Positions 336-56,012 of a stretch of 64,000 nucleotides of DNA are shown here, in pieces. Made by a program: the position numbers and the translations under genes. Positions within the stretch are counted from its first letter, which is position 1, and each line of letters opens with the position of its first letter. This stretch comes from Saprospira grandis str. Lewin (lineage in GTDB: Bacteria; Bacteroidota; Bacteroidia; Chitinophagales; Saprospiraceae). The notes under the pieces were generated by a model. The model was not told the origin of the DNA. It did no database searches and saw nothing but the letters and a program-made list of their open reading frames with translations. The stretch is from assembly GCF_000250635.1 (NCBI RefSeq), contig NC_016940.1, positions 930,001 through 994,000 on the forward strand, read 5' to 3'.

Positions 336-470
336 GGGGCCTCCGCCTCCCTTCGGTCGTCGGCGCTACGTTGCGCAGCTCGCAGGTCTGCTCGGCCCTG
401 CGGCCTGACGGCCTGGGTCTGCGGCTGCGCCGCACTGCTCCACATCGCTAGGCCGAATGGCCTTCGGCCA
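336..470 (+). repeat. VSE copy 1 (variable-stem intergenic element)
   Basis: First copy of a 24-copy intergenic family. Read from its GGGGC end, a copy has: GGGGCCT or a variant; a first hairpin; a conserved connector with GCTCGC and GCTCGGCCCT; a second, very variable hairpin; GTCTGGCC or GTCTGC leading a third hairpin; CATCGCT or CATCCCT; and a terminal block complementary to the start. Here the ends are GGCCT/AGGCC and the second stem is GGCC-tga-GGCC. It fills most of the gap between the pseudouridine synthase and the next gene. Short open frames across it are by-products of its GC-rich arms. Confidence 0.85.
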
Positions 471-2933: not shown

Positions 2934-3127
2934 GGCTGAGGGGCTGTAGCAGGGCCGCCGAAGGCGGCAGACCAAGGCGCTTCGCGCCGAAGGGCCGAGC
3001 GAACAGCGAGCTGCGCAATGGCCCGACCCGACCGATAATTCATGAGGGTTTCAACCCTCATTTTGTATAGCTTCGCAAAGCGATACCGCTTTGCGCTGGG
3101 TTTTAACCTAGCGGAAGGGGCAGCCCC
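2934..3127 (-). repeat. VSE copy 2, interrupted by a hairpin-bearing insert
   Basis: Ends pair as GGCTG/CAGCC; the second stem is GGCGC-ttc-GCGCC. Between about 3032 and 3110 the element carries roughly 80 extra nt with TGAGGGTTTCAACCCTCA (3044-3061) and a second stem around GGTTTTAACC. Most other copies lack this insert. It lies between two convergent genes. Confidence 0.8.
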
Positions 3128-6676: not shown

Positions 6677-6836
6677 GGGGCCTCCGCTGCAGCTTCGCCT
6701 TGCGGCGCTACGCTTTGGGGCTCGCAGGTCTGCTCGGCCCTGCGCAAAAAAACAAGTTTTTTGCTTGGTCTGGCCTTCGGCCACCCCGCCGCATCGCTAG
6801 GCCATTTGGCCTTCGGCCAGGGCGGCTTCGCCGCCC
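6677..6836 (+). repeat. VSE copy 3
   Basis: Ends GGCCT/AGGCC. The first stem is CCGC...GCGG; the second is GCAAAAAA paired with TTTTTTGC, an AT-type version of an arm that is GC-rich in copy 1. Extra hairpins follow the end block. It lies between the MATE gene and a lipoprotein gene. Confidence 0.85.
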
Positions 6837-9963: not shown

Positions 9964-10106
9964 TGGGCCAGACCAAGGCCTTCAGGCCGCAATGGCCTAG
10001 CGATGTGCAGCAGTGCGGCAAAGCCGCAGACCAAGGCCGTCAGGCCGCAGGGCCGAGCAGACTTGCGAGCTGCGAAACGTAGCGCCCGCCGCAGGCGGGA
10101 GGCCCC
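9964..10106 (-). repeat. VSE copy 4
   Basis: Ends GGCCT/AGGCC. First stem CCCGCC-tgc-GGCGGG; second stem GGCC-gtca-GGCC. It occupies the divergent gap between the exonuclease and the first TPM gene, which otherwise holds only AT-rich sequence and a promoter box. Confidence 0.85.
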
Positions 10107-12040: not shown

Positions 12041-12195
12041 GGGGCTGCCCCTGCGGCCTTCGGCCTTGGGTCGGGCTGTATCGCAGCTCGCTGTTCGCTC
12101 GGCCCTGCGTTTTTTTTCGCTACGCTCAAAAAACTAGGTCTGGCCTGCGGCCACTGCTGCCCATCCCTCAGCCTGCGGCGCTGCGCGCCTGCTAG
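12041..12195 (+). repeat. VSE copy 5
   Basis: Ends GGCTG/CAGCC. The second stem is AT-type (GTTTTTTT with AAAAAAC around cgctacgctc); the first is CCC...GGG with an inner GGCC-ttc-GGCC. It lies after the second TPM gene. Confidence 0.85.
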
Positions 12196-14428: not shown

Positions 14429-14644
14429 GGCCTAGCGATGTGAAGCAGTGCGGCAAAGCCGCAGACCAAAGCCGCCAGAGGCGGCTGCAGGGCCGAGCGA
14501 ACAGCGAGCTGCGAAACGTAGCGCCGACGACCGAAGGGAGGCGGAGGCCCCAAAATAGCAGCGAGCCCCAAAGCGACAACAAGAACTTTAGTTCGCAGTT
14601 CGACGACCAAAGGGAGTAACCGCCCGCCGAAGGCGGGAGGCCCC
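14429..14644 (-). repeat. VSE copy 6, with a second GGCCCC end
   Basis: Ends GGCCT/AGGCC, second stem AGCCGCC-aga-GGCGGCT. After the first AGGCCCC (14545-14551) the element continues with AGCGAGCCCC, the hairpin GAACTTTAGTTC, CGCAGTTCGACGACCAA, AGGGAGTAACCG, and a second CCCGCC...GGCGGG stem ending in AGGCCCC. This extended form recurs near 45.8, 48.4 and 50.8 kb. Confidence 0.8.
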
Positions 14645-16710: not shown

Positions 16711-16850
16711 GGGGCTGCCCCTCCCTTCGGTCGGGTCGGGCTGTTTCGCAGCTCGCTATTCGCTCGGCCCTTCGGCGCTTTCAGCGCCTCGGTCTGGCCC
16801 TGCGGGCCACTGCTGTCCATCCCTCAGCCTGCGGCCCTATCGGGCCTGTA
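16711..16850 (+). repeat. VSE copy 7
   Basis: Ends GGCTG/CAGCC; second stem GGCGCT-ttc-AGCGCC; the end block is followed by GGCCC-tatc-GGGCC. It lies between aspS and the flavin reductase gene. Confidence 0.85.
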
Positions 16851-17522: not shown

Positions 17523-17643
17523 GCGGCCAAAGACCGCCTTGGCCGAAGGCCAAATGGCCTAGCGATGTGCAGCAGTGGCCCGAAGGGCCAGACCCAGGCA
17601 GCTTTGCTGCCGCAGGGCCGAGCAGACTTGCGAGCTGCGCAAC
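17522..17643 (-). repeat. VSE copy 8, left part (split by an IS)
   Basis: Starts at the stop of the flavin reductase gene. End block GGCCT; second stem GGCAGC-ttt-GCTGCC. It stops at CTGCGCAAC, the left copy of the IS target duplication, and resumes at 19202. Confidence 0.85.
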
Positions 17644-19201
17644 CTTGGGTTGACCCACTTTTTATAGCGGTGTCAATTTAGGGATCGATATCCATCATAC
17701 ATAAATATGAATCTCTCTAACCCTAGTCCTATTTTCTTGACGGATACGGCATGCCTAGTTTTCTTCACTGCGCCATTAAATCCGCCCAACCTTGCTATGA
17801 TCCAATAGGCCCAAGCTATTGATTTAGAGGTAAATGGGTTACGCAAAGAAGGGCTTTGGCTTTCGCCTTTTAGATATTGTTTAAATATAAGATCTAAGAC
17901 TTCTACTTCATCTTCTGTGAAAATAGAGGTTGCTGGAGTCTCATTATCTTGGTTAAGTCCAGCTTCTTTAAGCTTAAGGACCTTGTCAGATGCACTGATT
18001 GCCATAAGTATCATTTTGCGGATAGCTTTACCTGTTTTTAAACATATGTTTTCAATATCAAAGCCATCTGATTTTAAATATTTAAAGTATGTTTCAATTA
18101 ACCACCTCTTGCGGTAGCAAAGAACAAGCTCTAAGAGCTCTTCTTCGCTGTTGATTTCTTCATTTGTGAGTAAGCGCCAACTGATGGTTTCATCATCATG
18201 ATCTTTTTTTGTTCGGCTTCTTTTTCTAGCGGCAGATTTTGAAAAACCTTTGCCCTTTTCAAAGACCTCAATAACATTGATTGTCATTGGTTTAGGCCTT
18301 GGTTCGCCAAGAACATACTTACAAGATTTGGGAACGGCAAAAGTCACTTTTTTAGATCGAACAACTAGCTTCTTCCCGTTAAGTTTTTTACGGCTACTCT
18401 TGACCGTTTCTGTCGTCTCAAAGTCTGCTGGATAATGTTCAAAGACATCACATAATGGAATCTTTTTGCCATCCTCCCAAATCGTTGCTCGTCTATCTGT
18501 TCGAGACCGAATCAAGAACTTAATATGCTGTCTGAAAAAACTTTCCATCATGGGATAAACATCTCCTTCTCGATCACAAACATGTAAAATATCAATTAGG
18601 TCGTTAATTACTTTTAACGCAGATTCTGTCTCTTCTACATTTACTTTCCATCTCGTAATTTCACCTCTAAAATGACCCGTATTTCTATTTTCAGCCTCCT
18701 TACAAGTTACTCTATTTTTATATCGATTATAAAGCTGAACACCTCCTAAGCCATGATAATGAAAGCTTTCTCGACCATATAGTAGAGCCATGTGAAGAAA
18801 TACAGACAAATTTGTTTCCCGACCTCCAGGGCCTAAACCCTCTTTGTCCGTTAGTCTATTTCTTTGCTTATTCAGTACAACTTCAGAGGTGTCGTGAAAG
18901 GCCAGAAGCTTTTCTTCAACCACCTTCATAGACTCCCTACTTTTGCCAATAAACTCAAATTGAATGTATTCCTCAGTAAGATTTTTGTTTGATAACAACC
19001 TCATGAAAGCCTTACGGTCTGCATCAGTTTTTGCTACATTTGTTAAATGTGGGTTAGGATTATTTTTTAGACTCTCTGCTAATCTATAACATACTCTCAC
19101 TGATTGCTTATTTAGCATAAATGAAGATACCTTTGTACTGTCCATATAAATCTTGATTTAGAGCTAAGTTAAGCTTATTTTTAAAAGTGGGTCAACCCAA
19201 G
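17644..19201 (-). mobile_element. IS4-family (IS50/Tn5-like) insertion sequence, 1558 bp
   Basis: Perfect 19-bp terminal inverted repeats CTTGGGTTGACCCACTTTT at 17644-17662 and, inverted, at 19183-19201. The flanks carry a 9-bp direct duplication CTGCGCAAC at 17635-17643 and 19202-19210. It holds one transposase gene. Insertion was into VSE copy 8; removing the IS and one duplication restores a normal copy. The exact ends and intact gene suggest a recent, possibly active insertion. Confidence 0.93.
17673..19145 (-). CDS. IS4-family transposase (Tn5-like DDE)
   Basis: 490 residues. The RNase H-type catalytic core is visible as the first Asp in LLAFHDTSEVV (about residue 96-106), the second in CDREGDVYPMMESFF (about 196-212), and the Y-x-x-R-W...E motif YRKRWLIETYFKYLKS (about 358-373) supplying the catalytic Glu. 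The NKQRNRLTDKEGLGPGGR region and the late FKQYLKGESQSPS fit Tn5/IS50-like enzymes. Length and the 9-bp target duplication agree with that group. It fills the IS between its inverted repeats and has AT-rich, host-unlike codon use compared with its neighbours. Confidence 0.93.
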   Translation of the reverse strand: MDSTKVSSFMLNKQSVRVCYRLAESLKNNPNPHLTNVAKTDADRKAFMRLLSNKNLTEEYIQFEFIGKSRESMKVVEEKLLAFHDTSEVVLNKQRNRLTDKEGLGPGGRETNLSVFLHMALLYGRESFHYHGLGGVQLYNRYKNRVTCKEAENRNTGHFRGEITRWKVNVEETESALKVINDLIDILHVCDREGDVYPMMESFFRQHIKFLIRSRTDRRATIWEDGKKIPLCDVFEHYPADFETTETVKSSRKKLNGKKLVVRSKKVTFAVPKSCKYVLGEPRPKPMTINVIEVFEKGKGFSKSAARKRSRTKKDHDDETISWRLLTNEEINSEEELLELVLCYRKRWLIETYFKYLKSDGFDIENICLKTGKAIRKMILMAISASDKVLKLKEAGLNQDNETPATSIFTEDEVEVLDLIFKQYLKGESQSPSLRNPFTSKSIAWAYWIIARLGGFNGAVKKTRHAVSVKKIGLGLERFIFMYDGYRSLN

Positions 19202-22146: not shown

Positions 22147-22348
22147 AGGCTATGCCCTTAAAAAATAGCTGGCCTAGCCAAAAATTCATAGCAAAGATGG
22201 CCAAAGCAGCGCGATTAAATCTGGCTGAGGGGCTGTAGCAGGGCCGCCGAAGGCGGCAGACCAAAGCGGCTTTGCCGCTGCAGGGCCGAGCAGACCTGCG
22301 AGCTGCGCAATGGCCCGACCCAAGGCCGAAGGCCGCAGGGGCAGCCCC
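22147..22348 (-). repeat. VSE copy 9 with upstream extension
   Basis: The core (22223-22348) has ends GGCTG/CAGCC and second stem AGCGGC-ttt-GCCGCT. The 75 nt before it (ATGCCCTTAAAAAATAGC, then TGGCC-AGCCAAAAA and GATTAAATCTGGCTGA) closely match the sequence before copy 16 near 42.0 kb, so those two copies share a longer unit. Confidence 0.8.
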
Positions 22349-24918: not shown

Positions 24919-25057
24919 GGGGCCTCCCGCCTTCGGCGGGCGCTACGCTTTGGGGCTCGCAGGTCTGCTCGGCCCTTCGTTTTTTTCGCTACGCTCAAAA
25001 AACTCGGTCTGGCCTTCGGCCACCCCGTCGCATCGCTAGGCCAGCGGCTGCGCCGCT
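24919..25057 (+). repeat. VSE copy 10, between nrdB and nrdA
   Basis: Ends GGCCT/AGGCC; first stem CCCGCC-ttc-GGCGGG; second stem AT-type (GTTTTTTT with AAAAAAC). It is opposite in direction to both nrd genes and would be transcribed as antisense of the element in an nrdBA message. Confidence 0.85.
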
Positions 25058-26487: not shown

Positions 26488-26618
26488 GGCTGAGGGATGG
26501 AAAGTGGTGGCCGCAGGCCAGACCCAAGTTTTTTGAAGCGAAGCGAAAAAAACTGCAGGGCCGAGCAGACCTGCGAGCCACGACACAGCCCGACCCGCCC
26601 GCAGGGCGGGGCAGCCCC
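26488..26618 (-). repeat. VSE copy 11
   Basis: Ends GGCTG/CAGCC; first stem CCCGCCC-tgc-GGGCGGG; second stem AGTTTTTT with AAAAAACT. It precedes the subtilase gene. Confidence 0.85.
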
Positions 26619-30682: not shown

Positions 30683-30832
30683 GGGGCTTCCCCGCCTGCG
30701 GGCGGGTCGGGCTGTGCCGCAGCTCGCAGGTCTGCTCGGCCCTTCGCCGCTTTCAGCGGCTCGGTCTGGCCTGACGGCCACTGCTATCCATCCCTAAGCC
30801 GTTTGGGGCCAAGGCCCCAGGGCCATTCGGCC
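30683..30832 (+). repeat. VSE copy 12, variant ends GGCTT/AAGCC
   Basis: The start is GGGGCTT and the end CCCTAAGCC, so both sides have changed together relative to GGCTG/CAGCC. First stem CCCGCC-tgc-GGGCGGG; second stem GCCGCT-ttc-AGCGGC; then GGGGCC-aa-GGCCCC after the end block. Confidence 0.85.
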
Positions 30833-30869
30833 CAAAGCAGCCGCCTTATCTACTAAATATCAATAGAAT

Positions 30870-31067
30870 ATGGACCAACAAGCCACTCCCGCCTCCTATG
30901 AAGCCGCCCTACTAGAGCTTCAGCAAATCTTAGAAGCCATTGAGGGCCAGCTTCCTCTAGAAGAGCTCAATGCGCAAAGCCGACGCGCGCAATTCTTACT
31001 CCAATATTGCCAGCAACGACTCCGCCATATTGAAGAAGAGCAAAATAATATTTATGAAGAGGACTAA
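30870..31067 (+). CDS. xseB: exodeoxyribonuclease VII small subunit
   Basis: 65 residues. The small subunit of the enzyme that degrades single-stranded DNA; it binds XseA. The family pattern is clear: SYEAALLELQQILEAIEGQL then PLEELNAQSRRAQFLLQYC and LRHIEEE. Length is typical. No xseA lies next to it in this window. Confidence 0.88.
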   Translation: MDQQATPASYEAALLELQQILEAIEGQLPLEELNAQSRRAQFLLQYCQQRLRHIEEEQNNIYEED

Positions 31068-31128
31068 AAGCAGCTTTTTGCTCTTCTCTTCGTTCTTTAT
31101 TTAATTAACTAAACTTATAGTTGTAACT

Positions 31129-31683
31129 TTGGAAAAGCCAAGCACCCTCCAACAATACGCCCATGAATTGGCCCAATGTAAGGCCCTATTTATTAAGAAG
31201 CAGCGAGATTATGGCTCGGCTTGGCGGATTTTGCGGCCAAGTTCTTTAACCGACCAATTATATATTAAGGCCAAGCGCATTCGCTCTATAGAGGAAAAGC
31301 AAAGCCAAAAGGTGGGAGAATCTATTGCGGGCGAGTATTTGGCCCTAGTCAATTATAGTTTTATGGCCCTGATTCAGTTGGAGTTGCCTTTGGCCGCTGG
31401 GCTTTATCTGCCTAGCGAGCAAGTGGAGGCCCTTTATCAGGAGCAGGCCGAGATTTGCCAAGAGCTGATGCTGCGCAAAAACCATGACTATGGCGAAGCC
31501 TGGCGAGATATGCGCCTCAGTTCTTTGACGGACCTCATTTTGATGAAGCTTTTGCGGACCAAAGAAATTGAGGACCATAAAGAGCAGCTTTTGGTTTCGG
31601 AGGGTTTGGCCGCCAATTATCAGGATATTGCCAATTATGCGCTCTTTGCTTTGATTCGTTTGCGCGAAAAAGAGGCAAAGTAG
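31129..31683 (+). CDS. DUF1599 protein (two tandem domains)
   Basis: 184 residues. Two copies of the same domain: KKQRDYGSAWRILRPSSLTD with YIKAKRIRSIEE, and LRKNHDYGEAWRDMRLSSLTD with LMKLLRTKEIED. Bacteroidota DUF1599 proteins have this double form; the domain has been linked to nucleotide-modification systems by others, but the function here is unknown. No ATG is near the N-terminus; a TTG at 31129 (reading L/MEKPSTLQQYAHELAQC) fits best. A TAACTTTG box overlaps this TTG, so leaderless transcription or a downstream start should be considered. Confidence 0.8.
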   Translation: MEKPSTLQQYAHELAQCKALFIKKQRDYGSAWRILRPSSLTDQLYIKAKRIRSIEEKQSQKVGESIAGEYLALVNYSFMALIQLELPLAAGLYLPSEQVEALYQEQAEICQELMLRKNHDYGEAWRDMRLSSLTDLILMKLLRTKEIEDHKEQLLVSEGLAANYQDIANYALFALIRLREKEAK

Positions 31684-31698
31684 TTGGCCCAAAAAGCA

Positions 31699-31856
31699 AG
31701 GCCTTTAGGCCGCCGCTTTACGGCCTAGCGATGTGCAGGGGTGGCCGAAGGCCAGACCGAGTTTTTTTGAGCAAAGCGAAAAAAAACGAAGGGCCGAGCA
31801 GACCTGCGAGCCCCGAAACGTAGCGCCGCAAGGCCGCAGGCCGCAGCGGAGGCCCC
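31699..31856 (-). repeat. VSE copy 13
   Basis: Ends GGCCT/AGGCC; first stem CCGC...GCGG with inner GGCC pairs; second stem AT-type (GTTTTTTT with AAAAAAAC around gagcaaagcg). Confidence 0.85.
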
Positions 31857-31901
31857 AAAACAGCAGAAGAACAATCATTTTATATCAATCTGTTTATCAT
31901 T

Positions 31902-33596
31902 ATGACCGTATATACACTTTTTCTTTACATTGGCATTGTGGCCTTGGTACTGACCTTTAGTTTGGGCTTGGGACTATCTAAAAAGCGGGAATTTGTGCGG
32001 ACGCATCTGCCGCTTTGGTTTGTACAATATTTTGTGGGAGCCCTGCTTGTTTTTTCGGGGGCGGTCAAGGTCGTTGACCCCTTGGGGACGGCTTATAAAA
32101 TGGCCGATTACTTTACGCTTTTGCTGCCGGTATTGTCCTTTATGAAGCCTTTTGTGGTTCCTTTTGGCCTACTGATGATTGTTTTGGAGGTCGTGCTTGG
32201 GATCAACTTAATTTTGGGCCATGGAAAAAAATGGACCACGAGTTTGAGCTTTTTGATGATGCTCTTTTTCACCTTTCTAACGGGCTACAACTACCTCACG
32301 GGCTACATTCCGCAGGATGTTTCGCCTTTTGCGACGGGGCAGTGGGTGGCCTTTAATGAAAATAACATTCGGGTGAGTGATTGTGGTTGTTTTGGCGACT
32401 TCATGAAGCTTTTGCCAATTGAAACCTTTGGGAAGGACATCATTTTGACCTTCATGACCATTTTTCTTTATATCCGAACGGAAAGCCTGCAATATGTGAT
32501 TCCGGAGCGAGGCAAAGGGCGTTTGATTAGCACTTCTTTTTGGACCGTAGCGATAACGGTGGCTAGTTTGTTCAACTTTTACTTTGGATTGCCTTGGGTA
32601 GATTTTCGCCCCTTTGCAGAAGGGCGCAACATAGTGATTGAGCGAGAAATTTGTGCTTTGGACCAGCCCGAAGTATTGCTTACTTATACTTATAAGAACA
32701 AAAACACGGGAGAAGAGGTCAAGGTCAATAACAAACAGATGTCTGAAGAGACCGAGAAATACAGCTACCTTTGGAAGACCAAAGATGCCGATGGCAACAA
32801 AATTTGGGAGACCCAAAATGACAAAACGAAAGAAGAAGTATTGAAAAAAGGCTGCGACTCTAAAGTGGCTGAAATGGATGCTTCTAAGCAGCATAGTTTT
32901 GCGAGTCAGGGCTATAGTTTTTTGGTTGTTGCCGATGATTTGAGCAAATCTTCAAAGGAAGGCTTCAAAAAAATTGCGGCCTTGAGTTTGGCGGCAGAAA
33001 AGCAGAAAGGCATCCCCACGCATGCGCTTTATTACTACATCAAAGATGCGGATGCCGATGGCGATTATAGTGATGATTTGGAGGCTTTTCGGCAGGAATT
33101 AGGCACCGCCTTTGATTTTACGCAGGGCGATGAAAAGTTGGTCAAGACGATCATTCGTTCTAGTCCGGGCCTTTTGCTTTTGCATAATGGAACAATTGTT
33201 AAGAAATGGCATCATCGTCAGTTGCCTGGCAGCTTTGAAGAATTGGCCGAGGCTTATATTCAGGAGCCTACTGTAGATCTAGAATTGGAATTAGCGATTC
33301 AGGACTACATGCCTGAGGGGACAAAACATGGCTTTTTCTGTTCTGTGGACAAAGTAAATCAGGGAGATTTTGGGCAACAAGAGCTTGATCTTGTTATTTT
33401 GGATGGCAATGATGCCCTATTGCGGCCCTTAATGGATGAGAATACAGATTTGGGCGTTACGGAGCGTAAATTGAACGTCAAGTTGAGCAAAAACCCGCAA
33501 CTAGTTCCTAGCAACCCCAACTTAAAATGGGTTCCCAATGGCATTTTGGACCAAAAGGGGCAAGCTTGGGAAATTGTTAGTATTGAATTGAAGTAG
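31902..33596 (+). CDS. BT_3928-family DoxX-type membrane protein
   Basis: 564 residues. Residues 1-225 hold about six membrane segments of a DoxX/MauE-like fold, with FVGALLVFSGAVKVVDPLGT and the motif SDCGCFGDFMKL, a Cys pair often linked to thiol-disulfide chemistry. Residues 230-564 are soluble, with PGLLLLHNGTIVKKWHHRQL resembling a thioredoxin-type strand-turn (about 425-445). This architecture is a conserved Bacteroidota family (BT_3928). It is likely in the inner membrane; substrate unknown. A hairpin terminator follows. Confidence 0.8.
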   Translation: MTVYTLFLYIGIVALVLTFSLGLGLSKKREFVRTHLPLWFVQYFVGALLVFSGAVKVVDPLGTAYKMADYFTLLLPVLSFMKPFVVPFGLLMIVLEVVLGINLILGHGKKWTTSLSFLMMLFFTFLTGYNYLTGYIPQDVSPFATGQWVAFNENNIRVSDCGCFGDFMKLLPIETFGKDIILTFMTIFLYIRTESLQYVIPERGKGRLISTSFWTVAITVASLFNFYFGLPWVDFRPFAEGRNIVIEREICALDQPEVLLTYTYKNKNTGEEVKVNNKQMSEETEKYSYLWKTKDADGNKIWETQNDKTKEEVLKKGCDSKVAEMDASKQHSFASQGYSFLVVADDLSKSSKEGFKKIAALSLAAEKQKGIPTHALYYYIKDADADGDYSDDLEAFRQELGTAFDFTQGDEKLVKTIIRSSPGLLLLHNGTIVKKWHHRQLPGSFEELAEAYIQEPTVDLELELAIQDYMPEGTKHGFFCSVDKVNQGDFGQQELDLVILDGNDALLRPLMDENTDLGVTERKLNVKLSKNPQLVPSNPNLKWVPNGILDQKGQAWEIVSIELK

Positions 33597-33618
33597 AGCA
33601 TCTCTATTTATAAAACAG

Positions 33619-33654
33619 ATCCCTCTAGGCCTTAGGCTTAGGGGGATTTTTTTT
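33619..33654 (+). terminator. rho-independent terminator
   Basis: ATCCCTCTAGGCC pairs imperfectly with GGCTTAGGGGGAT and runs into eight T, 22 nt after the stop at 33596. Confidence 0.65.
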
Positions 33655-33656
33655 GC

Positions 33657-34073
33657 TTAACTACCTTTTAGGTCTGCGGCTTGCTTTTTAACTGCGGCCG
33701 CATGCACCCAGCCCAAATAGCCTAACTCTGTTTTTACTCGATAAAAAGGAGCATAATATTTTTTCCCTCTCAACTGAACTGTCACACTATCGCTAGAAAT
33801 CTCGCCCATAAAATAGAGCTCGCTCCCTTCTGGCAAATGGCGCAAAACCTTGGCCTCTAGCTGCTCATGTTCTCGGAGTCGGAGGTTTTGCACCTCTACG
33901 CGGAGCAGGTCACCTCGCTTCAACCCATTGGTTATCTTTTGCTTATTATCTACAACAGACAAAGAAGCATTTTCTTCTGGGGGGCTAATTAAGGCTGTTT
34001 TTTCTGTATCTTGCTGGCAAGCGGTACAGCTAAAGAGAGTAAACAGCAGGATATAAATTAAAGCATTTGGCAT
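33657..34073 (-). CDS. lipoprotein with SH3-type domain
   Basis: 138 residues. Signal with lipobox (LFTLFSCTACQQD; Cys near 16-19). Residues 55-130 look like a bacterial SH3 (SH3_3) domain: GDLLRVEVQNLRLREHEQLE, VLRHLPEGSELYFMGE, VKTELGYLGWVHAAAV. Such domains bind peptidoglycan or protein partners at the envelope. It stands alone, divergent from the desaturase gene. Confidence 0.75.
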   Translation of the reverse strand: MPNALIYILLFTLFSCTACQQDTEKTALISPPEENASLSVVDNKQKITNGLKRGDLLRVEVQNLRLREHEQLEAKVLRHLPEGSELYFMGEISSDSVTVQLRGKKYYAPFYRVKTELGYLGWVHAAAVKKQAADLKGS

Positions 34074-34255
34074 ATATTCAGTCTTAATTCAAATCACATA
34101 ATCGACTTAAATATAGAAAAAGCGCTTTATTTCTTAAAAGTTTTAAGCACTTCTTTGGGGGGTATCCCTTTTTTGTACATCCATAAACAAAGGCGCAAGC
34201 TAGCGCCCCTTATCCTTTTGAACTGGCACCGAAAAGGGCCAAAAGAAACAGATTT

Positions 34256-35389
34256 ATGCCAAAAACCATTCGTTTTAGCCTAGCTGATCAGGCTAAATTT
34301 TTTCCTACCCTACGCAAAAGGGTCAATCAGCACTTTCGTAGCCAAGATATTGACCGTAATGCAGATAGCCGCATGTACCTCAAGTCAGCGGTTATGTTAG
34401 GGCTCTATTTAATTCCTTTTGTGGTTATTCTGCTCAATATTTTGCCCCTTTGGGCTGTCATGATCGCCTATATCGTTATGGGTATTGGCCTTGTTGGCAT
34501 TGGGATGAACATTATGCATGATGCCAATCATGGCGCCTACTCCAAAAACCCTACAGTCAATGCTATTTTTGGCTATACCATCAATTTAGTTGGTGGAAAT
34601 GCCTTTACCTGGAAGGTGCAGCACAATATGATGCACCACACCTATACCAATATCTACGGCTTCGATGAAGATATTGAAGATAAACCCTTTTTGCGCCTTT
34701 CTCCCAATGGAAAGCTCAAGGGCTACCACCGTTTTCAGCACCTTTATGCGCCTATTCTCTATGGTTTAGCTACCGTTTCTTGGATTTTATGGAAGGATTT
34801 TGTGGCCCTAAAGGGCTATAGCCAAGACGGTAAAACAGCCGCCATGGGCAGTACCCACAGCAGAGAGTTCTGGATCCTACTTAGCACTAAAATTGGCTAC
34901 TGGGCCATCTTTTTTATCCTTCCTATTGTCCTCACTAGCTATGCTTGGGGCTATTTGCTACTCGGCTTTTTCATGATGCACATGACGGCAAGTATGATTA
35001 TGACTTTGGTCTTTCAAGTAGCTCATGTTGTAGAGCTTACCGACCATTTTCAGCCCGATGAGCAAAATGAGGTAGAAAATGTTTGGGCCATGCACCAGCT
35101 GGCCACCACCTCTAATTTTGCCCGCCAAAACAAAGCGCTTTCTTGGTTCTTGGGCGGACTAAATTTTCAGGTAGAACACCACCTTTTTCCCAATATTTGC
35201 CATGTGCACTACCCCGAGGTCGCCAAAATTGTCAAGGCAACCGCCGAGGAGTTTGGCGTGCCCTATTATGAGTTCAAAACCTTTGGTGGCGCAATCAGCT
35301 CTCATTTTAAGAGCCTAAAAGCCTTGGGCAATAATGAGCTACAAGCGGTAGAATTGCCAAAAAATACTGGAGCCGCAGTGATGAAGTAA
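34256..35389 (+). CDS. membrane fatty acid desaturase
   Basis: 377 residues. Three His boxes are present: HDANHGAY (about 85-92), HNMMHHTYTN (about 121-130) and QVEHHLFPNICHVHYPEV (about 306-323), the QxxHH third box typical of front-end/linoleoyl-CoA-type desaturases. Four to six hydrophobic segments lie between (YLIPFVVILLNILPLWAVMI, GYWAIFFILPIVLTS). It inserts a double bond in membrane lipids with di-iron chemistry. No cytochrome b5 domain is fused. Terminator follows. Confidence 0.93.
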   Translation: MPKTIRFSLADQAKFFPTLRKRVNQHFRSQDIDRNADSRMYLKSAVMLGLYLIPFVVILLNILPLWAVMIAYIVMGIGLVGIGMNIMHDANHGAYSKNPTVNAIFGYTINLVGGNAFTWKVQHNMMHHTYTNIYGFDEDIEDKPFLRLSPNGKLKGYHRFQHLYAPILYGLATVSWILWKDFVALKGYSQDGKTAAMGSTHSREFWILLSTKIGYWAIFFILPIVLTSYAWGYLLLGFFMMHMTASMIMTLVFQVAHVVELTDHFQPDEQNEVENVWAMHQLATTSNFARQNKALSWFLGGLNFQVEHHLFPNICHVHYPEVAKIVKATAEEFGVPYYEFKTFGGAISSHFKSLKALGNNELQAVELPKNTGAAVMK

Positions 35390-35412
35390 AAACTATTGTT
35401 CTATATCCATAC

Positions 35413-35448
35413 AAAAGGCCTTCTCGCTAAGCAGAGAAGGCCTTTTTT
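35413..35448 (+). terminator. desaturase terminator
   Basis: AAAAGGCCTTCTC pairs perfectly with GAGAAGGCCTTTT around a GCTAAGCA loop, followed by more T. Confidence 0.85.
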
Positions 35449-35500
35449 GGTCCTCTAAAAGCTTTTAGCTATATTCTGAACTCAAAAAACAATACAATTT

Positions 35501-36007
35501 ATGCAAAAGAAAATGGGGCATACGCCCAAATTGATTTTAAAGCTAGAAGGACAGTATTGGCAACTCGCTCAAAACAAAACCGAAACCGCTCAGGAGTTTC
35601 AGGCCCTAGCCCCTCCCCTACAGCGGATGATGTTGGGCGCATTTTCGGCCCTCCTACTCAAAATTGATCGGGCGGCTATCTATTTCTTTGCCGCCGAAAA
35701 AGAAGGACCTTCGGCTAGCTACCACTGCCTAGAAGAACAAGATGAGCTCCTCCGATTGAAGATCCAGCCCCTAGACGAAAAACAAAAAGCCAGAGAAATT
35801 GAACTCTCTTGCACAAATGACTATTTGAAGATCGTTGGTTTATTGCCTGCCCAAGCGGCCCTTTTCTATGAAAAAGCCGACTGGAAAAGCTACAGCCAAG
35901 AGGAACAAGCCGCCTATGAGGCCCAAATGCAAAAAATTGTCGATCAATTTGGCCAAGATATGCGACAACAAATCCAACAACAACATCAAACTAAAGAAAA
36001 ACTTTAA
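35501..36007 (+). CDS. cytoplasmic protein of unknown function
   Basis: 168 residues from the ATG at 35501 (MQKKMGHTPKLILKLEGQYW). No signal peptide. It has two halves: a hydrophobic middle (RMMLGAFSALLLKIDRAAIYFFAAEKEGP) and a helical Gln-rich end (FGQDMRQQIQQQHQTKEKL). Composition is not that of a shadow frame, and its A/T-rich start region suggests a true gene. No motif recognised. The SAM hydrolase follows 81 nt later and may share a transcript. Confidence 0.6.
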   Translation: MQKKMGHTPKLILKLEGQYWQLAQNKTETAQEFQALAPPLQRMMLGAFSALLLKIDRAAIYFFAAEKEGPSASYHCLEEQDELLRLKIQPLDEKQKAREIELSCTNDYLKIVGLLPAQAALFYEKADWKSYSQEEQAAYEAQMQKIVDQFGQDMRQQIQQQHQTKEKL

Positions 36008-36088
36008 GCGCCTATTCAATTGTTTATAAATTAAAAGCTGCTTTTACAAACTTCTTTTAATTTTGTGCTCGCTTAATCCATCTTTTTT

Positions 36089-36874
36089 ATGCAAGCCTCT
36101 GGAATCATTACCCTAACGACCGACTTTGGCGTCCGCGATCATTATGCGGCCCTACTCAAAGGACATATTTTGTCGGAAGGGCAGGCTGTGCAATTTATCG
36201 ATATCTCTCATCAGGTGCAGGCCTACAATATTGGCCAAGCGGCTTATTTGTTGGGCGCTAGCTTTTGGGCCTTTCCCAAAGGGAGCATTCATATTGTGAG
36301 TGTGCACAATTTCTATCAAGAGCATCCCCGTTTTTTGGTCATTGCCCATAAGGGCCACTATTTTATTGGGCCCGATAATGGCGTTTTCTCTCTTTTGTTT
36401 AAAGAAAAACCCCAAGAAATTTATCAGCTCATTAGTGAGGAGCCTCCTTCTTTGCTCAGCATGCAGCGCCTATTTGCCAAGGCCTCGGCCCATTTGTTGG
36501 CCCAACAACCCCTAGAGGAAATTGGCCAAAAAAGCGATGAGCTGCTCGAGCGCATTAGCCTCAATGCCGTGGTGAGCAAGGATTATATCCGCGCCGCGGT
36601 CCTCTACATCGATGTCTATGAAAATGTGGTCCTCAATGTAGACCGAGAACTCTTTGAGGAAATTGCCCAGGGCCGCTCTTTCGAGCTTTATTTCAAACGC
36701 TTCGATCCCATTAGCGACCTCAGTTTGCATTATGCCGAACAGGCCGTGGGCGAGGTCCTTTGTCTGTTCAATTCTTCGGGCTTGCTAGAAATTGCTGTCA
36801 ATGCAGGCAAGGCCGCCTCGCTATTTGGCCTAAAAGTAGACGATAGCGTCCAGCTCGAGTTTCTCAATGATTAG
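36089..36874 (+). CDS. SAM hydroxide adenosyltransferase (DUF62 / fluorinase-chlorinase fold)
   Basis: 261 residues. These enzymes hydrolyse S-adenosylmethionine to adenosine and methionine, and share the fold of the fluorinase/chlorinase. The signature TLTTDFGVRDHYAALLKGHI (about 7-26), then VQFIDISHQVQAYNIGQAAYLL, and HYFIGPDNGVFSLLF (about 89-103) are present; the C-terminal domain starts near FELYFKRFDP. The usual PGVG-type strand before DxN is replaced by VHNFYQEHPRFLVIAHKG. Physiological role is unclear in the family. Ends near VSE copy 14. Confidence 0.88.
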   Translation: MQASGIITLTTDFGVRDHYAALLKGHILSEGQAVQFIDISHQVQAYNIGQAAYLLGASFWAFPKGSIHIVSVHNFYQEHPRFLVIAHKGHYFIGPDNGVFSLLFKEKPQEIYQLISEEPPSLLSMQRLFAKASAHLLAQQPLEEIGQKSDELLERISLNAVVSKDYIRAAVLYIDVYENVVLNVDRELFEEIAQGRSFELYFKRFDPISDLSLHYAEQAVGEVLCLFNSSGLLEIAVNAGKAASLFGLKVDDSVQLEFLND

Positions 36875-36911
36875 TAGAAGAGTCCATTTTTTTGTGCTCT
36901 TCTCTTTTTTT

Positions 36912-37031
36912 GGGGCCCGCGGCCAGCAAAGCTGGCCGCCGCTATGCTGCGCGGCTCGCAAGTCTGCTCGGCCCTGCGCGGGCTGCGCCCGCTGGGTCTG
37001 GCCTGCGGCCACCGCTGCGCAGCGCTGGGCC
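36912..37031 (+). repeat. VSE copy 14, variant ends GGCCC/GGGCC
   Basis: The start is GGGGCCC and the end block GGGCC, a third paired change at the ends. The second stem is GCGGGC-tgc-GCCCGC and the first stem is GCGGCCAGC with GCTGGCCGC. Confidence 0.8.
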
Positions 37032-37075
37032 GCTCATCTCTCTTTTTCACTTTTTGGCCCTCTTCTTCGGCCTCC

Positions 37076-37112
37076 AAAAGGATCAAAACCCTAGGGTTTT
37101 GATCCTTTTTTT
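37076..37112 (+). terminator. 34-bp perfect palindrome, terminator
   Basis: The 17-nt arm AAAAGGATCAAAACCCT is followed at once by its exact reverse complement (centre CTAG), then more T. It lies after the SAM hydrolase and VSE copy 14. Confidence 0.75.
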
Positions 37113-37177
37113 ATGCCCAATTGTTAATGATAAGTTAAGTTGCTGACTTAATGAACTTATCACTCCATAGCAATGAG

Positions 37178-37527
37178 CTAGCTTTTTGTTAGCTCGACCT
37201 AGCTTTTTACCAGCTCGACCTAGTTCTGCTCTAGCTCGACCTAGTTCTGCTCTAGCTCAACCTAGCTTTTTACTAGCTCGACCTAGCTCTGCTTTAGCTC
37301 AACCTAGCTTTTTGTTAGCTCGACCTAGTTCTGCTCTAGCTCAACCTAGCTTTTTACTAGCTCGACCTAGTTCTGCTCTAGCTCAACCTAGCTTTTTACT
37401 AGCTCGACCTAGCTCTGCTCTAGCTCAACCTAGCTTTTTACTAGCTCGACCTAGCTCTGCTCTAGCTCAACCTAGCTTTTTACTAGCTCGACCTAGCTCT
37501 GCTCTAGCTCAACCTAGCTTTTTACTA
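37178..37527 (+). repeat. 21/42-bp tandem array with CTAG every 10-11 bp
   Basis: About 16.6 units of 21 bp in two alternating types form a 42-bp period: CTAGCTTTTTA + CTAGCTCGAC and CTAGYTCTGCT + CTAGCTCAAC. CTAG (or a one-base variant) therefore recurs at 11- and 10-bp steps, 10.5 bp on average, close to one DNA helical turn. The array lies between convergent genes. A frame reading (LARPSFL)n stays open only because 21 is a multiple of three and lacks an ATG, so no protein is called. Confidence 0.95.
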
Positions 37528-37576: not shown

Positions 37577-37725
37577 CAGGGCCGAAGGCCCGCAGGCTGA
37601 GGGATGGGCAGCAGGGCGGCGAAGCCGCAGACCCAGCAAAATGAGCAAAGCGAAATTTTGCGCAGGGCCGAGCGAACAGCGAGCTGCGAGACAGCCCGAC
37701 CCGAGCGAAGCGAGTGGGCAGCCCC
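37577..37725 (-). repeat. VSE copy 15
   Basis: Ends GGCTG/CAGCC; second stem GCAAAAT with ATTTTGC around gagcaaagcga. It follows the tandem array. Confidence 0.85.
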
Positions 37726-42011: not shown

Positions 42012-42218
42012 AGGCGATGCCTTAAAAAAATAGCTGGCCGAGCCAAAAAACCAGAGCAAAGAGGGTCAAAGCAGGGCGATTACATCTGGCTGAGGGATGG
42101 ACAGCAGGGCGGCGAAGCCGCAGACCCAGCAAAATGAGCGCAGCGAAATTTTGCGCAGGGCCGAGCGAACAGCGAGCTGCGAAACAGCCCGACCCGAGCG
42201 AAGCGAGTGGGCAGCCCC
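42012..42218 (-). repeat. VSE copy 16 with the same upstream extension as copy 9
   Basis: Core 42088-42218: ends GGCTG/CAGCC; second stem GCAAAAT with ATTTTGC around gagcgcagcga, close to copy 15. The sequence before it (GGCGATGCCTTAAAAAAATA, GCTGGCCGAGCC, GGGCGATTACATCTGGCTGA) repeats that before copy 9. Confidence 0.85.
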
Positions 42219-45292: not shown

Positions 45293-45423
45293 GGGGCCTC
45301 CTGCCTGCGGCAGGCGCTACGCTTTGGGGCTCGCTGTTCGCTCGGCCCTTCGGCGCTTTCAGCGCCTTGGTCTGGCCTGACGGCCACCCCGCCGCATCGC
45401 TAGGCCTGCGGCGGCTTCGCCGC
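45293..45423 (+). repeat. VSE copy 17
   Basis: Ends GGCCT/AGGCC; first stem CCTGCC-tgc-GGCAGG; second stem GGCGCT-ttc-AGCGCC. It opens the toxin island and forms an inverted pair with copy 18. Confidence 0.85.
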
Positions 45424-45666
45424 CTGCTAGCTGTGGCTGCAGGTTGAAACCAGCAGCCAATTTAGGTGCAGCAGAGCCCGCTCCTGACCAACAATTGGCC
45501 TGCAGCTTAAAAGCCGCAGGACCTGAAAACCAAATATATCCTTCCCACAAACAAAGCAGGGGCTTTTAAGCCGCTGCGGCGAGAAAGACCAAAGCCCAAC
45601 AAGAATGGCTGCGGCCTTTAGGCTGCAGATAGCGGCAAAGCCGCCATGGCCGAAGGCCAAACGGCC
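45409..45666. repeat. duplicated ~255-bp segment, copy a
   Basis: Nearly the same sequence occurs at 48108-48366: GGCTTCGCCGCCTGCTAGC, GGCTGCAGGTTGAAACCAGC, then GCTTAAAAGCCGCAGGACC, AGGGGCTTTTAAGCCGCTGC and AAGCCCAACAAGAATGGCTG. Its own hairpins include GCTTAAAAGC and GGCTTTTAAGCC. The middle is more diverged, with small indels. A short third piece occurs near 50.35 kb. Confidence 0.85.
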
Positions 45667-45851
45667 TAGCGATGGTAGGCAGTGCGGCGAAGCCGCAGAC
45701 CAAGGCCGTCAGGCCACAGGGCCGAGCGACCCGACCAACGGGAGCCGACGCAGCGAAGCAAGTAACAGCGAGCCCCGAAACGACAACAAGGACTTTAGTC
45801 CGCAGTTCGACGACCAACGGGAGTAACCGCCCGCCGAAGGCGGGAGGCCCC
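45663..45851 (-). repeat. VSE copy 18 (extended form)
   Basis: Ends GGCCT/AGGCC, second stem GGCC-gtca-GGCC. It carries the accessory part with hairpin GGACTTTAGTCC, CGCAGTTCGACGACCAA and a final CCCGCC...GGCGGG. Some inner connector appears deleted or rearranged. Confidence 0.75.
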
Positions 45852-47963: not shown

Positions 47964-48010
47964 TTTCAAAGAACGAGAGCTAAAGATACTATTTTTTGGG
48001 GCCTGCCGCC
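47964..48010 (-). promoter_or_regulatory. shared leader of toxin cassette 1
   Basis: The minus strand reads GGCAGGCCCC, A run, TAGTATCTTTAGCTCTCG, TTCTTTGAAAT. The same segment precedes cassette 2 (50179-50226) with one substitution and one extra A/T in the run. TATCTTTA inside it resembles a promoter box. Confidence 0.6.
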
Positions 48011-48109
48011 TAAGGCGGCCGGGCCCTTGCAGGGCTCGCAAGGCTGCTCGGCCCTGCGGGCTTCGCCCTTGGTCTGCCGCTGCGCGGCACCCTTACAGGC
48101 CCCTAGGCC
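47998..48109 (+). repeat. VSE copy 19 (GGGGCCTGCC subtype)
   Basis: Ends GGCCT/AGGCC; first stem GCCGCC-taa-GGCGGC, then GGGCCC-ttgca-GGGCTC; second stem GGGC-ttc-GCCC. Its end block reads CAGGCCCCTAGGCC, a subtype shared with copies 21 and 24. Confidence 0.8.
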
Positions 48110-48366
48110 TGCGGCGGCTTCGCCGCCTGCTAGCTGTGGCTGCAGGTTGAAACCAGCAGCCAATTTAGGTACAGCATAGTCCCCTCAGAACCAACAACTG
48201 GCCTGCAGCTTAAAAGCCGCAGGACCTGAAAACATAATACCTCCTTTCCATAAACAAAGCAGGGGCTTTTAAGCCGCTGCGGCGAGAAAGACCAAAGCCC
48301 AACAAGAATGGCTGCGGCCTTTAGGCTGCAGATAGCGGCAAAGCCGCCATGGCCGAAGGCCAAACG
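48108..48366. repeat. duplicated ~255-bp segment, copy b
   Basis: Matches 45409-45666 almost base for base at both ends; the middle differs (for example TAGGTACAGCATAG against TAGGTGCAGCAGAG). Each copy lies between a forward and a reverse VSE. Confidence 0.85.
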
Positions 48367-48520
48367 GCCACAACAAGCCCTTTAGGGCGCAGTTCGACGA
48401 CCAAAGGGAGTAACCGATGTGCAGGGGTGGCCGAAGGCCAGACCCAGCGGGCGCAGCCCGCGCAGGGCCGAGCGAGCAGCGAGCCCCGAAACGTAGCGCC
48501 CGCCGAAGGCGGGAGGCCCC
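48365..48520 (-). repeat. VSE copy 20 (rearranged extended form)
   Basis: Starts with the accessory module (hairpin GCCCTTTAGGGC, then CGCAGTTCGACGACCAA and GGGAGTAACCGATGTG) in place of the usual GGCCTAGCGATG end, then the normal core with GCGGGC-gca-GCCCGC, ending AGGCCCC. Confidence 0.75.
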
Positions 48521-50179: not shown

Positions 50180-50226
50180 TTCAAAAAACGAGAGCTAAAG
50201 ATACTATTTTTTTGGGGCCTGCCGCC
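50179..50226 (-). promoter_or_regulatory. shared leader of toxin cassette 2
   Basis: Same segment as at 47964-48010 (TAGTATCTTTAGCTCTCG and a TTTGAAAT join), here fused directly at the Met of MRKSPE. It may provide a promoter to truncated cassettes. Confidence 0.6.
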
Positions 50227-50328
50227 TTCGGCGGCCGGGCCCTTGCAGGGCTCGCAAGCCTGCTCGGCCCTGCGCCAGCAAGCTGGCTAGGTCTGCCGCT
50301 ACGCGGCCCCCTTTCAGGCCCCTAGGCC
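50214..50328 (+). repeat. VSE copy 21 (GGGGCCTGCC subtype)
   Basis: Ends GGCCT/AGGCC; first stem GCCGCC-ttc-GGCGGC then GGGCCC...GGGCTC; second stem GCCAGC-aa-GCTGGC. It ends in CAGGCCCCTAGGCC like copy 19. Confidence 0.8.
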
Positions 50329-50339
50329 AAGTCGCTTCG

Positions 50340-50613
50340 GGCCTTTGCGGCGGCTTCGCCGCCTGCTAGCCGTGGCTGCAGGTTGAAACCAGCAGCCATA
50401 CAACAACCCCATTCTACATCTATAGTGCGGAGAGGATTAAAATCCTCTACCGCTTTGAACAAGGGTTGTTTTTTCTTTGGTAGTTTGATTTTGTTTTTTT
50501 CTCCCCCATAAATTTCATAATAACCCTAGGGCCAAGGCCCTAGGCTATTGAAAAAATCGCCATCCCCTCATTCGAGGGGATTTTCTGTTCCACTAGGCTC
50601 CATCAGCAAAGAA
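50340..50613. other. gene-free stretch of small hairpins
   Basis: Starts with a short piece of the 255-bp duplicated segment (GCCTGCTAGCCGTGGCTGC, AGGTTGAAACCAGCAGCC). It then has separate hairpins: AGAGGATT-aa-AATCCTCT (50431-50448), CCTAGGGCC-aa-GGCCCTAGG (about 50525-50544) and TCCCCTC-attc-GAGGGGA (50563-50580, T run after). No coding frame is convincing. Confidence 0.6.
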
Positions 50614-50733
50614 GGGCTAAAATGTTTATTTATGGAGGGTTTCAACCCTCCATTGAACACAAAAATGCATTCGTTAATTGGCTGTAGGTTTCAACCTACA
50701 GGCCCATATAGCAGGCCCCTAGGGCCGCAGGCC
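50614..50733. repeat. duplicated ~120-bp segment, copy a
   Basis: Nearly repeated at 52288-52407: AAAATGTTTATTTATGGAGG, GGTTTCAACC, CCATTGAACACAAAAATGCA, TTCGTTAATTGGCTGTAGG, TTTCAACCTACAGGCCC. It contains hairpins GGAGGGTTTCAACCCTCC and GTAGGTTTCAACCTAC, like the insert in VSE copy 2. Confidence 0.85.
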
Positions 50734-50883
50734 ACAACAAGCCCTTTAGGGCGCAGTTCGACGACCAACGGGAGTAACCGATGTGCAGGGGTGGCCGAAG
50801 GCCAGACCCAGCGGGCGCAGCCCGCGCAGGGCCGAGCGAACAGCGAGCCCCGAAACGTAGCGCCCGCCAAAGGCGGGAGGCCT
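50728..50883 (-). repeat. VSE copy 22 (rearranged extended form)
   Basis: Like copy 20: the accessory module with GCCCTTTAGGGC comes first, then the core with GCGGGC-gca-GCCCGC, ending GGGAGGCCT. Copies 20 and 22 are almost identical, consistent with duplication of the cassette surroundings. Confidence 0.75.
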
Positions 50884-50932
50884 ATACAAAACAGCTATCA
50901 GCTTTCATATCTTAGATCTGCCAACTATTCTT

Positions 50933-52287: not shown

Positions 52288-52407
52288 GGGCGAAAATGTT
52301 TATTTATGGAGGGTTTCCCCCCTCCATTGAACACAAAAATGCATTCGTTAATTGGCTGTAGGTTTCAACCTACAGGCCCATATAGCAGGCCCGTAGGGCC
52401 GCAGGCC
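52288..52407. repeat. duplicated ~120-bp segment, copy b
   Basis: Second copy of 50614-50733. In the first hairpin the loop side reads GGGTTTCCCCCC instead of GGGTTTCAACCC, leaving GGAGGG/CCCTCC paired. It joins straight into VSE copy 23. Confidence 0.85.
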
Positions 52408-52524
52408 TAGCGATGGTAGGCAGTGCGGCAAAGCCGCAGAGCAAGCAAAAACTTGTTTTTTGCGCAGGGCCGAGCGAACAGCGAGCTGCCGAACGTAGCG
52501 CCGCAGCTTTGCTGCGGAGGCCCC
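52404..52524 (-). repeat. VSE copy 23
   Basis: Ends GGCCT/AGGCC; first stem CCGCAGC-aaa-GCTGCGG; second stem GCAAAAA with TTTTTGC. It closes the toxin island. Confidence 0.85.
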
Positions 52525-55900: not shown

Positions 55901-56012
55901 GGGGCCTGCCGCCTTCGGCGGCCGGGCCCTTTCGGGGCTCGCAGGTCTGCTCGGCCCTGCAGCCCTACGGGCTTGGGTCTGGCCTGCGGCCACCCCTGCA
56001 GGCCCCTAGGCC
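55901..56012 (+). repeat. VSE copy 24 (GGGGCCTGCC subtype)
   Basis: Ends GGCCT/AGGCC; first stem GCCGCC-ttc-GGCGGC then GGGCCC...GGGCTC; second stem AGCCC-tac-GGGCT; end block CAGGCCCCTAGGCC. Third member of the subtype with copies 19 and 21. Confidence 0.8.

Follow-up and report, generated by a model that had tools for sequence, protein, structure and literature searches.

The element and its abundance

The DNA considered here, hereafter the window, is a stretch of 64,000 nt from the genome of the predatory marine bacterium Saprospira grandis str. Lewin (NC_016940.1, positions 930,001-994,000; the genome comprises 4,400,185 bases in two contigs). Along this stretch, mostly between genes, lies a dispersed element of about 120 nt, which starts with GGGG and has complementary ends that, in the covarying consensus, close a multi-branched fold. 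R1, a covariance model trained on 42 copies, recovers 24 copies in the window, and the pairing of the ends was tabulated for each of them (Table 1). The conserved core of the element, CTCGCAGGTCTGCTCGGCCC, occurs 13 times in the window at up to 3 mismatches and 0 times in shuffled sequences. An nhmmer search covering 1.064 Mb of this genome contributed 358 copies to the 536 matches collected in total, which extrapolates to approximately 1,480 copies per genome, i.e. about 4% of the DNA and one copy about every 3 kb. We could parse 506 of the 536 matches, including 340 from this genome, of which 11 are situated inside long open reading frames (ORFs).

In the consensus fold the outer part comprises the end helix (P1a), a variable hairpin 1, the helix P1b, an internal-loop module and the helix P2; P2 in turn encloses a small core hairpin, the helix P3 capped by a variable hairpin 2, and hairpin 3. 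No match to the element at gathering score was found in the window with Rfam, and at E<=10 nothing overlapped a copy between 30600 and 37100. Across seven further loci, 18 matches at E<=1 included no family for the element: these were tRNA models and antisense look-alikes (from the array in L094), a microRNA model (L107) and a leader (L084), the last a weak match touching the end of a copy by a single base. The tRNA gene array of L094, from genome G099, contains a copy of the element (positions 185-291). A literature search, whose reach did not extend to the genome papers on S. grandis Lewin and HR1, returned no description of the repeat, and a Saprospira genome paper (PMC10508125) makes no mention of it.

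Complementary ends and the boundaries of the element

The strongest signal is the concerted change of the two ends. Both ends could be called in 283 of the 340 parsed copies, the rest being dropped, and 271 of these are perfectly complementary over five letters, against a mean of 118 and a maximum of 143 in 1000 shuffles. The pairs are GGCCT/AGGCC (162 copies), GGCTG/CAGCC (67), GGCCC/GGGCC (31) and GGCTT/AAGCC (11). Mixed ends are almost absent: a GGCTG start is combined with an AGGCC end in 1 copy of the 283, and GGCCT/CAGCC, GGCCC/AGGCC and GGCCT/GGGCC each occur in 0. An earlier, cruder parse gave 142 paired copies of 155, with 8 of the 13 mismatches judged by eye to be artefacts of the caller. 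In the window all five letters pair in 19 of the 24 copies, the exceptions being copies 2, 8, 18, 20 and 22.

A preliminary description of this DNA had numbered 16 copies, which coincide with the first 16 of the 24 covariance-model matches, and had proposed that their ends covary in four versions. The covariation itself is borne out by these counts, as are the versions assigned to copies 5, 7, 9, 11, 15 and 16 (GGCTG/CAGCC), copy 12 (GGCTT/AAGCC) and copy 14 (GGCCC/GGGCC), and GGCCT/AGGCC for most of the other window copies. Copy 8, in which the 5' end is gone, falls outside this scheme, and the GGCTG start ascribed to copy 2 proved to be foreign sequence with GGTTG, pairing in four of five positions. 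Copy 12 ends at 30800 rather than at 30832. The four versions describe the local situation, and belong to a wider set of matched pairs across genera. By eye, copies in other genera have GGACT/AGTCC, GGGTT/AACCC, GGGCT/AGCCC, GGACC/GGTCC and GCGTG/CACGC, as well as GCGTA/TACGC, GCATC/GATGC, GCGCA/TGCGC and CCACC/GGTGG; some have a central mismatch (e.g. GGCCT/AGTCC), and in G036 a central C.T mismatch is common (GGCCA/TGTCC, 7 matches). Over 52 matches in stretches from five genera, a mean of 4.35 of the five end positions pair, compared with 2.87 in shuffles (maximum 3.38), and 32 of the 52 are perfect.

The ends also mark the boundaries of the element, as had been proposed. TTT stands directly 5' of GGGG in 19 of the 24 window copies, and the sequence 3' of the end arm is varied, with a few recurrent starts among the 283 copies (in this larger sample T frequencies at -3 to -1 are conditioned on the parse). 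T does not exceed 0.49 at any of the 25 positions 3' of the element. Since the T-run stands on the 5' side, an intrinsic terminator was rejected. Downstream sequence starts with TGCGGC in 39 of the 283 copies, the first letter past the 3' end is C in only 0.01, and a variable GC hairpin of the type TGCGGCGGCTTCGCCGCCTGC is often found directly 3' of copies (e.g. from 45407).

Table 1. Copies of the element in the window and parts of copy 12 (x/5, paired end letters)
Feature	Position	Strand	Remarks
Copy 1	336..454	+	5/5
Copy 2	2934..3058	-	4/5; 5' part replaced by foreign sequence
Copy 3	6677..6803	+	5/5
Copy 4	9994..10106	-	5/5
Copy 5	12041..12173	+	GGCTG/CAGCC
Copy 6	14429..14551	-	5/5
Copy 7	16711..16829	+	GGCTG/CAGCC
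Copy 8	17556..17674	-	2/5; 5' part replaced by insertion-like end
Copy 9	22223..22348	-	GGCTG/CAGCC
Copy 10	24919..25042	+	5/5
Copy 11	26488..26618	-	GGCTG/CAGCC
Copy 12, GGGG to AAGCC	30683..30800	+	R1 98.1 bits; 5/5; T-run just upstream
Copy 12, P1a 5' arm GGCTT	30685..30689	+	pairs with 30796-30800
Copy 12, hairpin 1	30690..30706	+	variable; from sequence and minimum free energy fold
Copy 12, P2 5' arm GCAG	30719..30722	+	partner CTGC 30781-30784
Copy 12, conserved core	30723..30742	+	3-bp hairpin GCA/TGC and P3 5' arm GGCC; from core counts and covariation
Copy 12, hairpin 2	30743..30762	+	often-swapped module; from orthologue comparison
Copy 12, P3 3' arm GGTC, TG and hairpin 3	30763..30780	+	fixed G.T pair (columns 78-120)
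Copy 12, P1a 3' arm AAGCC	30796..30800	+	pairs with 30685-30689
Copy 13	31722..31856	-	5/5; convergent partner of copy 12; between DUF1599 and MauE-domain genes
Copy 14	36912..37031	+	R1 95.3 bits; 5/5; GGCCC 36914-36918, GGGCC 37027-37031
Copy 15	37595..37725	-	GGCTG/CAGCC; convergent partner of copy 14
Copy 16	42088..42218	-	GGCTG/CAGCC
Copy 17	45293..45406	+	5/5
Copy 18	45663..45776	-	3/5; chimeric 5' half
Copy 19	47998..48109	+	5/5
Copy 20	48407..48520	-	3/5; 3' end runs into other repeat
Copy 21	50214..50328	+	5/5
Copy 22	50773..50885	-	2/5; both ends altered
Copy 23	52404..52524	-	5/5
Copy 24	55901..56012	+	5/5

Covariation of the inner helices

The inner part of the fold behaves similarly. 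RNAalifold applied to the 42 copies (alignment A1) recovered 27 pairs, 16 of them with two-sided changes. In alignment A3 (62 sequences, of which 60 are distinct and 24 come from the window; some rows are shared with A2), 96.1% of the pair cells are standard and 23 of 26 pairs show two-sided changes, figures that, as in similar model-fitted alignments, lean towards the model; none of 500 shuffles reaches any of these measures, and sliding the partner by 1-3 columns reduces pairing to 27-56%. A five-genus alignment (A4) has 92.2% of cells paired and two-sided changes in 21 of 26 pairs. A pair at columns 38-44 was taken out of the model, being a product of misaligned hairpin 1. Besides P1a there are seven helices, of which six covary clearly and P3 is nearly invariant. 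P2 is complementary in 316 of the 340 parsed copies of this genome, against a shuffled mean of 154. The core hairpin alternates between GCA/TGC and ACA/TGT, and TATG/CAGC or TAGG/CAGC can stand in for the loop motif TACG/CATC, such that a non-Watson-Crick pair, C.T, is exchanged for T.G or G.G. This covariation holds in 260 of 260 copies from the three related genomes that have the TA.G and CT landmarks, 3 copies lacking the CT landmark being excluded. One-sided intermediates are nearly absent (2 cells in the 42-copy alignment), and inspection by eye shows conservation of core and loop letters between genera.

Folding energies gave a less uniform picture. The preliminary description held that the ends close one multi-branched fold; the covarying consensus does close in this way, whereas energy folding on the strand that reads from GGGG (the reading strand) does not by itself predict it. 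As RNA on this strand, the end helix has probabilities of about 0.00, 0.34 and 0.99 in copies 5, 12 and 14, so that only copy 14, in which the minimum free energy structure equals the consensus fold, clearly forms it; as DNA the corresponding values are 0.04, 0.13 and 0.88. Over 119 sampled copies the mean as RNA is 0.32, compared with 0.07 when the last five letters are those of another type. Because folding on the reading strand fails to predict the end helix alone, its support is the covariation and not energy. On the opposite strand (98 copies) the mean rises to 0.83 as RNA and 0.67 as DNA. For P3 (GGCC/GGTC), which has its fixed G.T on the reading strand, the value as RNA drops from 0.22 there to 0.05 on the opposite strand. 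The strand signals thus conflict, the end helix folding better on the opposite strand and P3 on the reading strand.

Orientation and gene context

Successive copies in the window are oriented + - + - + - + - - + - + - + - - + - + - + - - +, and this alternation is general: neighbours are opposite in 274 of 320 pairs in this genome, and in 98 of 115 and 53 of 61 pairs in its sister genomes G057 and G152, respectively, counts that are not independent because sites are shared between the genomes. With the three genomes pooled, the same-orientation fraction at lags 1-6 is 0.14, 0.74, 0.33, 0.65, 0.36 and 0.61. The median spacing is 1.1 kb for convergent pairs and 3.4 kb for divergent ones; among pairs less than 1 kb apart 66 are convergent, 1 is divergent and 4 have the same orientation. 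In other genera, 11 of 12 neighbours are opposite in G098 and 3 of 4 in G013. Single genes inside convergent pairs, from simple ORF calls, are on the plus strand in 33 cases and on the minus strand in 31, so the alternation does not follow gene direction. The similarity between the two members of a convergent pair does not exceed that between other neighbours. Decayed partners were sought between same-oriented neighbours and found in 2 of 71 gaps, and partner loss is therefore not seen. There is no replication-strand bias by local GC skew (52 plus and 57 minus copies at positive skew, 117 and 123 otherwise), and in tandem gene pairs 93 copies are sense and 85 antisense with respect to the transcript.

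Two further proposals were examined and rejected. For copies 12 and 13, four other Bacteroidetes loci were compared, and in two of them (L208, L209) the DUF1599 and MauE-domain genes adjoin with no copy found; the interior gene is thus native and not the cargo of a composite unit. Secondly, neither a REP-associated tyrosine transposase (RAYT; REP, repetitive extragenic palindrome) nor a reverse transcriptase is likely to drive the element. The genome has one Y1_Tnp match, with no copy within 1.5 kb on either side. A single reverse transcriptase ORF (L144:1105-2769, an RVT_1 match, retron-like by eye) lies between two convergent copies, which means little because a copy occurs about every 3 kb. 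Elsewhere in the window a gene at 12347-13399 encodes a Card1 CARF domain and a Card1-like endonuclease domain; Card1-type CARF proteins are accessory nucleases of type III CRISPR systems.

Stable sites and exchanged stems

Comparison with the sister genomes was restricted to copies with both flanks matched, others being dropped. Mean flank identity is 93.8% to G057 (93-94% near copies) and 88.0% to G152. Sites occupied in S. grandis Lewin are occupied in 60 of 61 cases in G057 (1 unclear) and in 33 of 35 in G152 (2 unclear). The reverse test, in which a site was scored as occupied whatever the orientation of its copy, gave 64 of 66 from G057 to Lewin (2 unclear), 35 of 36 from G152 to Lewin and 34 of 37 from G152 to G057. 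One G152 copy is absent from both other genomes, with no clean target duplication. A tandem pair of G152 copies was scored as empty in G057, where a GGGGCCTCCGCC remnant is left at the site, which fits deletion.

At these stable sites the stems themselves have changed. Hairpin 2 is identical in 16 of 60 Lewin-G057 orthologue pairs, and its similarity is two-humped, at least 0.9 in 27 of the 60 and below 0.8 in 31; the low group spans the range of random copies, shifted somewhat upward. Eighteen of 27 strongly changed G057 versions of hairpin 2 occur exactly among the 340 sampled Lewin copies. P2 differs in 24 of the 60 pairs, both copies remaining complementary in 21 of the 24; the corresponding figures for changed P2 are 12 of 16 for Lewin-G152 and 11 of 12 for G057-G152. 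Entire stems have been substituted in place, usually both arms at once, and the core letters stay fixed; it looks as if copies traded modules without losing the fold. The ends change more rarely: in pairs with both ends called they differ in 4 of 53 Lewin-G057 orthologues (2 two-sided, 2 one-sided), 5 of 26 Lewin-G152 orthologues (2 two-sided, 3 one-sided) and 5 of 23 G057-G152 orthologues (1 clean two-sided, 4 leaving or repairing a mismatch).

Several copies are interrupted or rearranged. Two recurrent insertion-like ends (TGGGTCAACCCA; GAGGGTTAAAACCCTCATGAATTAT) appear within the element, mostly at hairpin 1 and once at hairpin 2 (copies 2 and 8 of the window and loci L021, L022, L026, L042, L052 and L057), as if an insertion sequence targeted the element. 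A second repeat family (GTTACTCC...GGTCGTCGAACTGCG...TTGTTGTC) takes the place of an end or of hairpin 1 in chimeric copies (copies 18 and 20; L024:3853-3992). Composite repeats of about 0.5-0.7 kb consist of two convergent copies around approximately 300 bp (45293-45776, 47998-48520 and 50214-50885); by eye the interiors of the first two are alike, and the third starts in the same way. In the G152 region matching window positions 36900-37500 a segment is inverted with a breakpoint near a copy, as if inverted copies had recombined.

Distribution and relationship to Flavo-1

Taking at most the best 17 candidates per genome, R1 matches at least 24 of 199 Saprospiraceae genomes, from at least 19 of 112 genera. 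With at most the best 150 candidates per genome, the numbers are at least 150 in G098 and G036, 149 in G013, 75 in G009, 49 in G195, 17 in G120, 16 in G030 and G099, and 11 in G062. Of 395 genomes spanning the phylum 4 have matches, namely this genome, two other Saprospiraceae, of which G028 has two weak matches, and G483 of another family. The G483 locus (L148) reads GGGTGCGA...TCGCAC and has the same core motif.

A pattern known from flavobacterial genomes turned up in 21 of 247 genomes and pointed to loci whose outer frame is the same and whose inner stem differs. Of seven loci tested, Rfam assigns six to the flavobacterial family Flavo-1 (RF01705), three above and three below the gathering score; L148 is not among them. 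By our own criterion, which lies outside the Rfam model, most of the pattern-selected loci have GGG, an end helix, hairpin 1 and TCGGGC...ATCCCT, although the pattern itself partly selected for this frame. A second model, R2, run on 22 of these loci, matched only L148 (34.4 bits, no Flavo-1 match) and, weakly, L190 (E 0.01). On sequence comparison Flavo-1 is probably the nearest known relative, with an outer frame that is often common and an inner domain that is not. Like the element, it has many dispersed copies in Bacteroidota, and several of them show, on the strand opposite to that of Rfam, TTTGGG, an end helix (GCGTG/CACGC, GCGTT/AACGC), hairpin 1 and GGGTCGGGC...ATCCCT. The frame is absent in 5 of 10 loci displayed, and the inner domain of Flavo-1 is a single stem, ATCTTTT...AAAAGGAT, where the element has P2, core hairpin, P3 with hairpin 2, and hairpin 3. 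The Flavo-1 model has 0 matches at E<=0.001 among the best 150 of 593 candidates in this genome, none in the window at the gathering score (42 bits) and none between 30600 and 37100 at E<=10. The Flavo-1 matches that were followed start inside hairpin 1, so that the 5' arm of the end helix falls outside them; judging by the end helix, the Rfam model may be trimmed too short.

DNA element or RNA

From the observed fold, site stability, module exchange and alternation we infer, tentatively and as a possibility still short of probable, a folded chromosomal element that is under selection at the DNA level, recognised by a host protein and acting in inward-facing pairs; the protein, the strand and the effect belong to the inferred part. 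Placement, weak transcript bias, similar rates of G.T and A.C, and pairwise orientation lead us to read it as DNA. Selection would keep the fold on most copies, and stems would be exchanged when short tracts of one copy convert another, products with mismatches being lost afterwards. A host protein might recognise the fold, which would be extruded or would form on a single strand, and inward-facing pairs might bound short chromosomal segments, somewhat like the REP sequences and bacterial interspersed mosaic elements (BIMEs). REP/BIME repeats bind nucleoid-associated proteins, and like the element they are high-copy intergenic palindromic repeats; the element differs in having no RAYT beside a copy, in being multi-branched rather than one hairpin and in alternating on a kilobase scale.

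Several observations weigh against this explanation. The fixed G.T pair of P3 (columns 78-120; 42 of 42 in A1, 50 of 60 in A3) is easier to understand in RNA, and the conserved loop letters would also suit RNA. Outside the fixed column G.T is about twice as frequent as A.C in A3. The 5' neighbouring gene is directed towards the element in 172 cases and away from it in 134, convergent gene gaps hold 79 copies and divergent ones 49, and alternation is weak in G036 (8 of 15 opposite). Some one-sided end changes between orthologues exist. Conversion from intact donors could preserve the copies even if they had no local function, and to invoke selection at this many loci is to claim a great deal. 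Moreover, the evidence comes from genome sequences.

A structured RNA, either a cis element of transcripts or a small RNA (sRNA) closed by the end helix, is somewhat unlikely in our estimate. It would account for covariation accompanied by conserved loop letters, for the fixed G.U pair in P3 and for the high end-helix probability as RNA on the opposite strand, the strand on which Flavo-1, typed as sRNA in Rfam, has its matches. The passages on Flavo-1 in Weinberg et al. 2010 (PMC2864571) regard it as probably RNA and probably not cis-regulatory, and those in a transcriptome study of F. psychrophilum (PMC9723704) report several 5' transcribed regions that coincide with Flavo-1 matches; neither set of passages gives a function. 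The latter also describe matches as indistinctly sense or antisense and many of them as outside transcribed regions, which, as far as these passages go, agrees with the weak transcript bias found here and speaks against RNA. The opposite strand is furthermore the less favourable one for P3. In an RNA family a stronger preference for G.U would be expected than is seen: outside the fixed column the counts of G.T and A.C are 19 and 12 in A2, 19 and 9 in A3, and 21 and 21 in A4, i.e. G.U is equal to, or at most about twice, A.C (tallies were taken from alignment columns, a stacking-based count over all hairpins being too noisy).

A non-autonomous mobile element, such as a miniature inverted-repeat transposable element or a REP-like repeat, or the structured ends of composite units, with the fold as substrate of a transposase acting in trans, is unlikely. 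High copy number, the T-rich 5' side, the similar interiors of the composite repeats and the G152 copy absent from both other genomes speak for it; on the other hand nearly all sites are common to the sister genomes, the emptied tandem site points to deletion, the lone Y1 transposase match has no copy near it, pair members show no special likeness and the gene between copies 12 and 13 is not cargo. Covariation alone cannot separate selection on the fold from shape-keeping exchange, and the covariation might arise with no selection for the fold, from shared ancestry and a mutational process in which template switching makes inverted repeats perfect. This reading would fit the scarcity of one-sided intermediates, the whole-stem swaps and the changed hairpin-2 versions found among other copies, and is nonetheless very unlikely given core and loop letters that by eye are conserved among genera, a mismatch pair that covaries in every eligible copy, and P2 arms matched across a conserved core where homology-driven exchange should break them. 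The fixed unpaired letters together with the covarying mismatch are why we favour selection on the fold.

Implications

If the element acts as folded DNA, the genome might be divided into hundreds of short segments bounded by its inward-facing pairs, with a protein responding to the shape and orientation of the element, an idea that is quite unlikely as it stands. If true, it would provide a prokaryotic counterpart of a convergent-site rule in which the stems diversify while the shape is kept. The paired CTCF sites of animals, which likewise face each other, serve here as an analogy that implies no homology; the scale differs, at about 1 kb, and for the bacterial element a binding protein and a loop are hypothetical. 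To our knowledge, no function has been established for the dispersed folded repeats found in Bacteroidota. With about 1,500 copies per genome, sister genomes that have the same sites and exchanged stems, and a strict orientation rule, one can test what recognises the fold and on which of the strands, as well as the reason for the facing orientation of neighbours. The folded repeat hints at a means of marking or organising a bacterial genome that has so far gone unrecognised.

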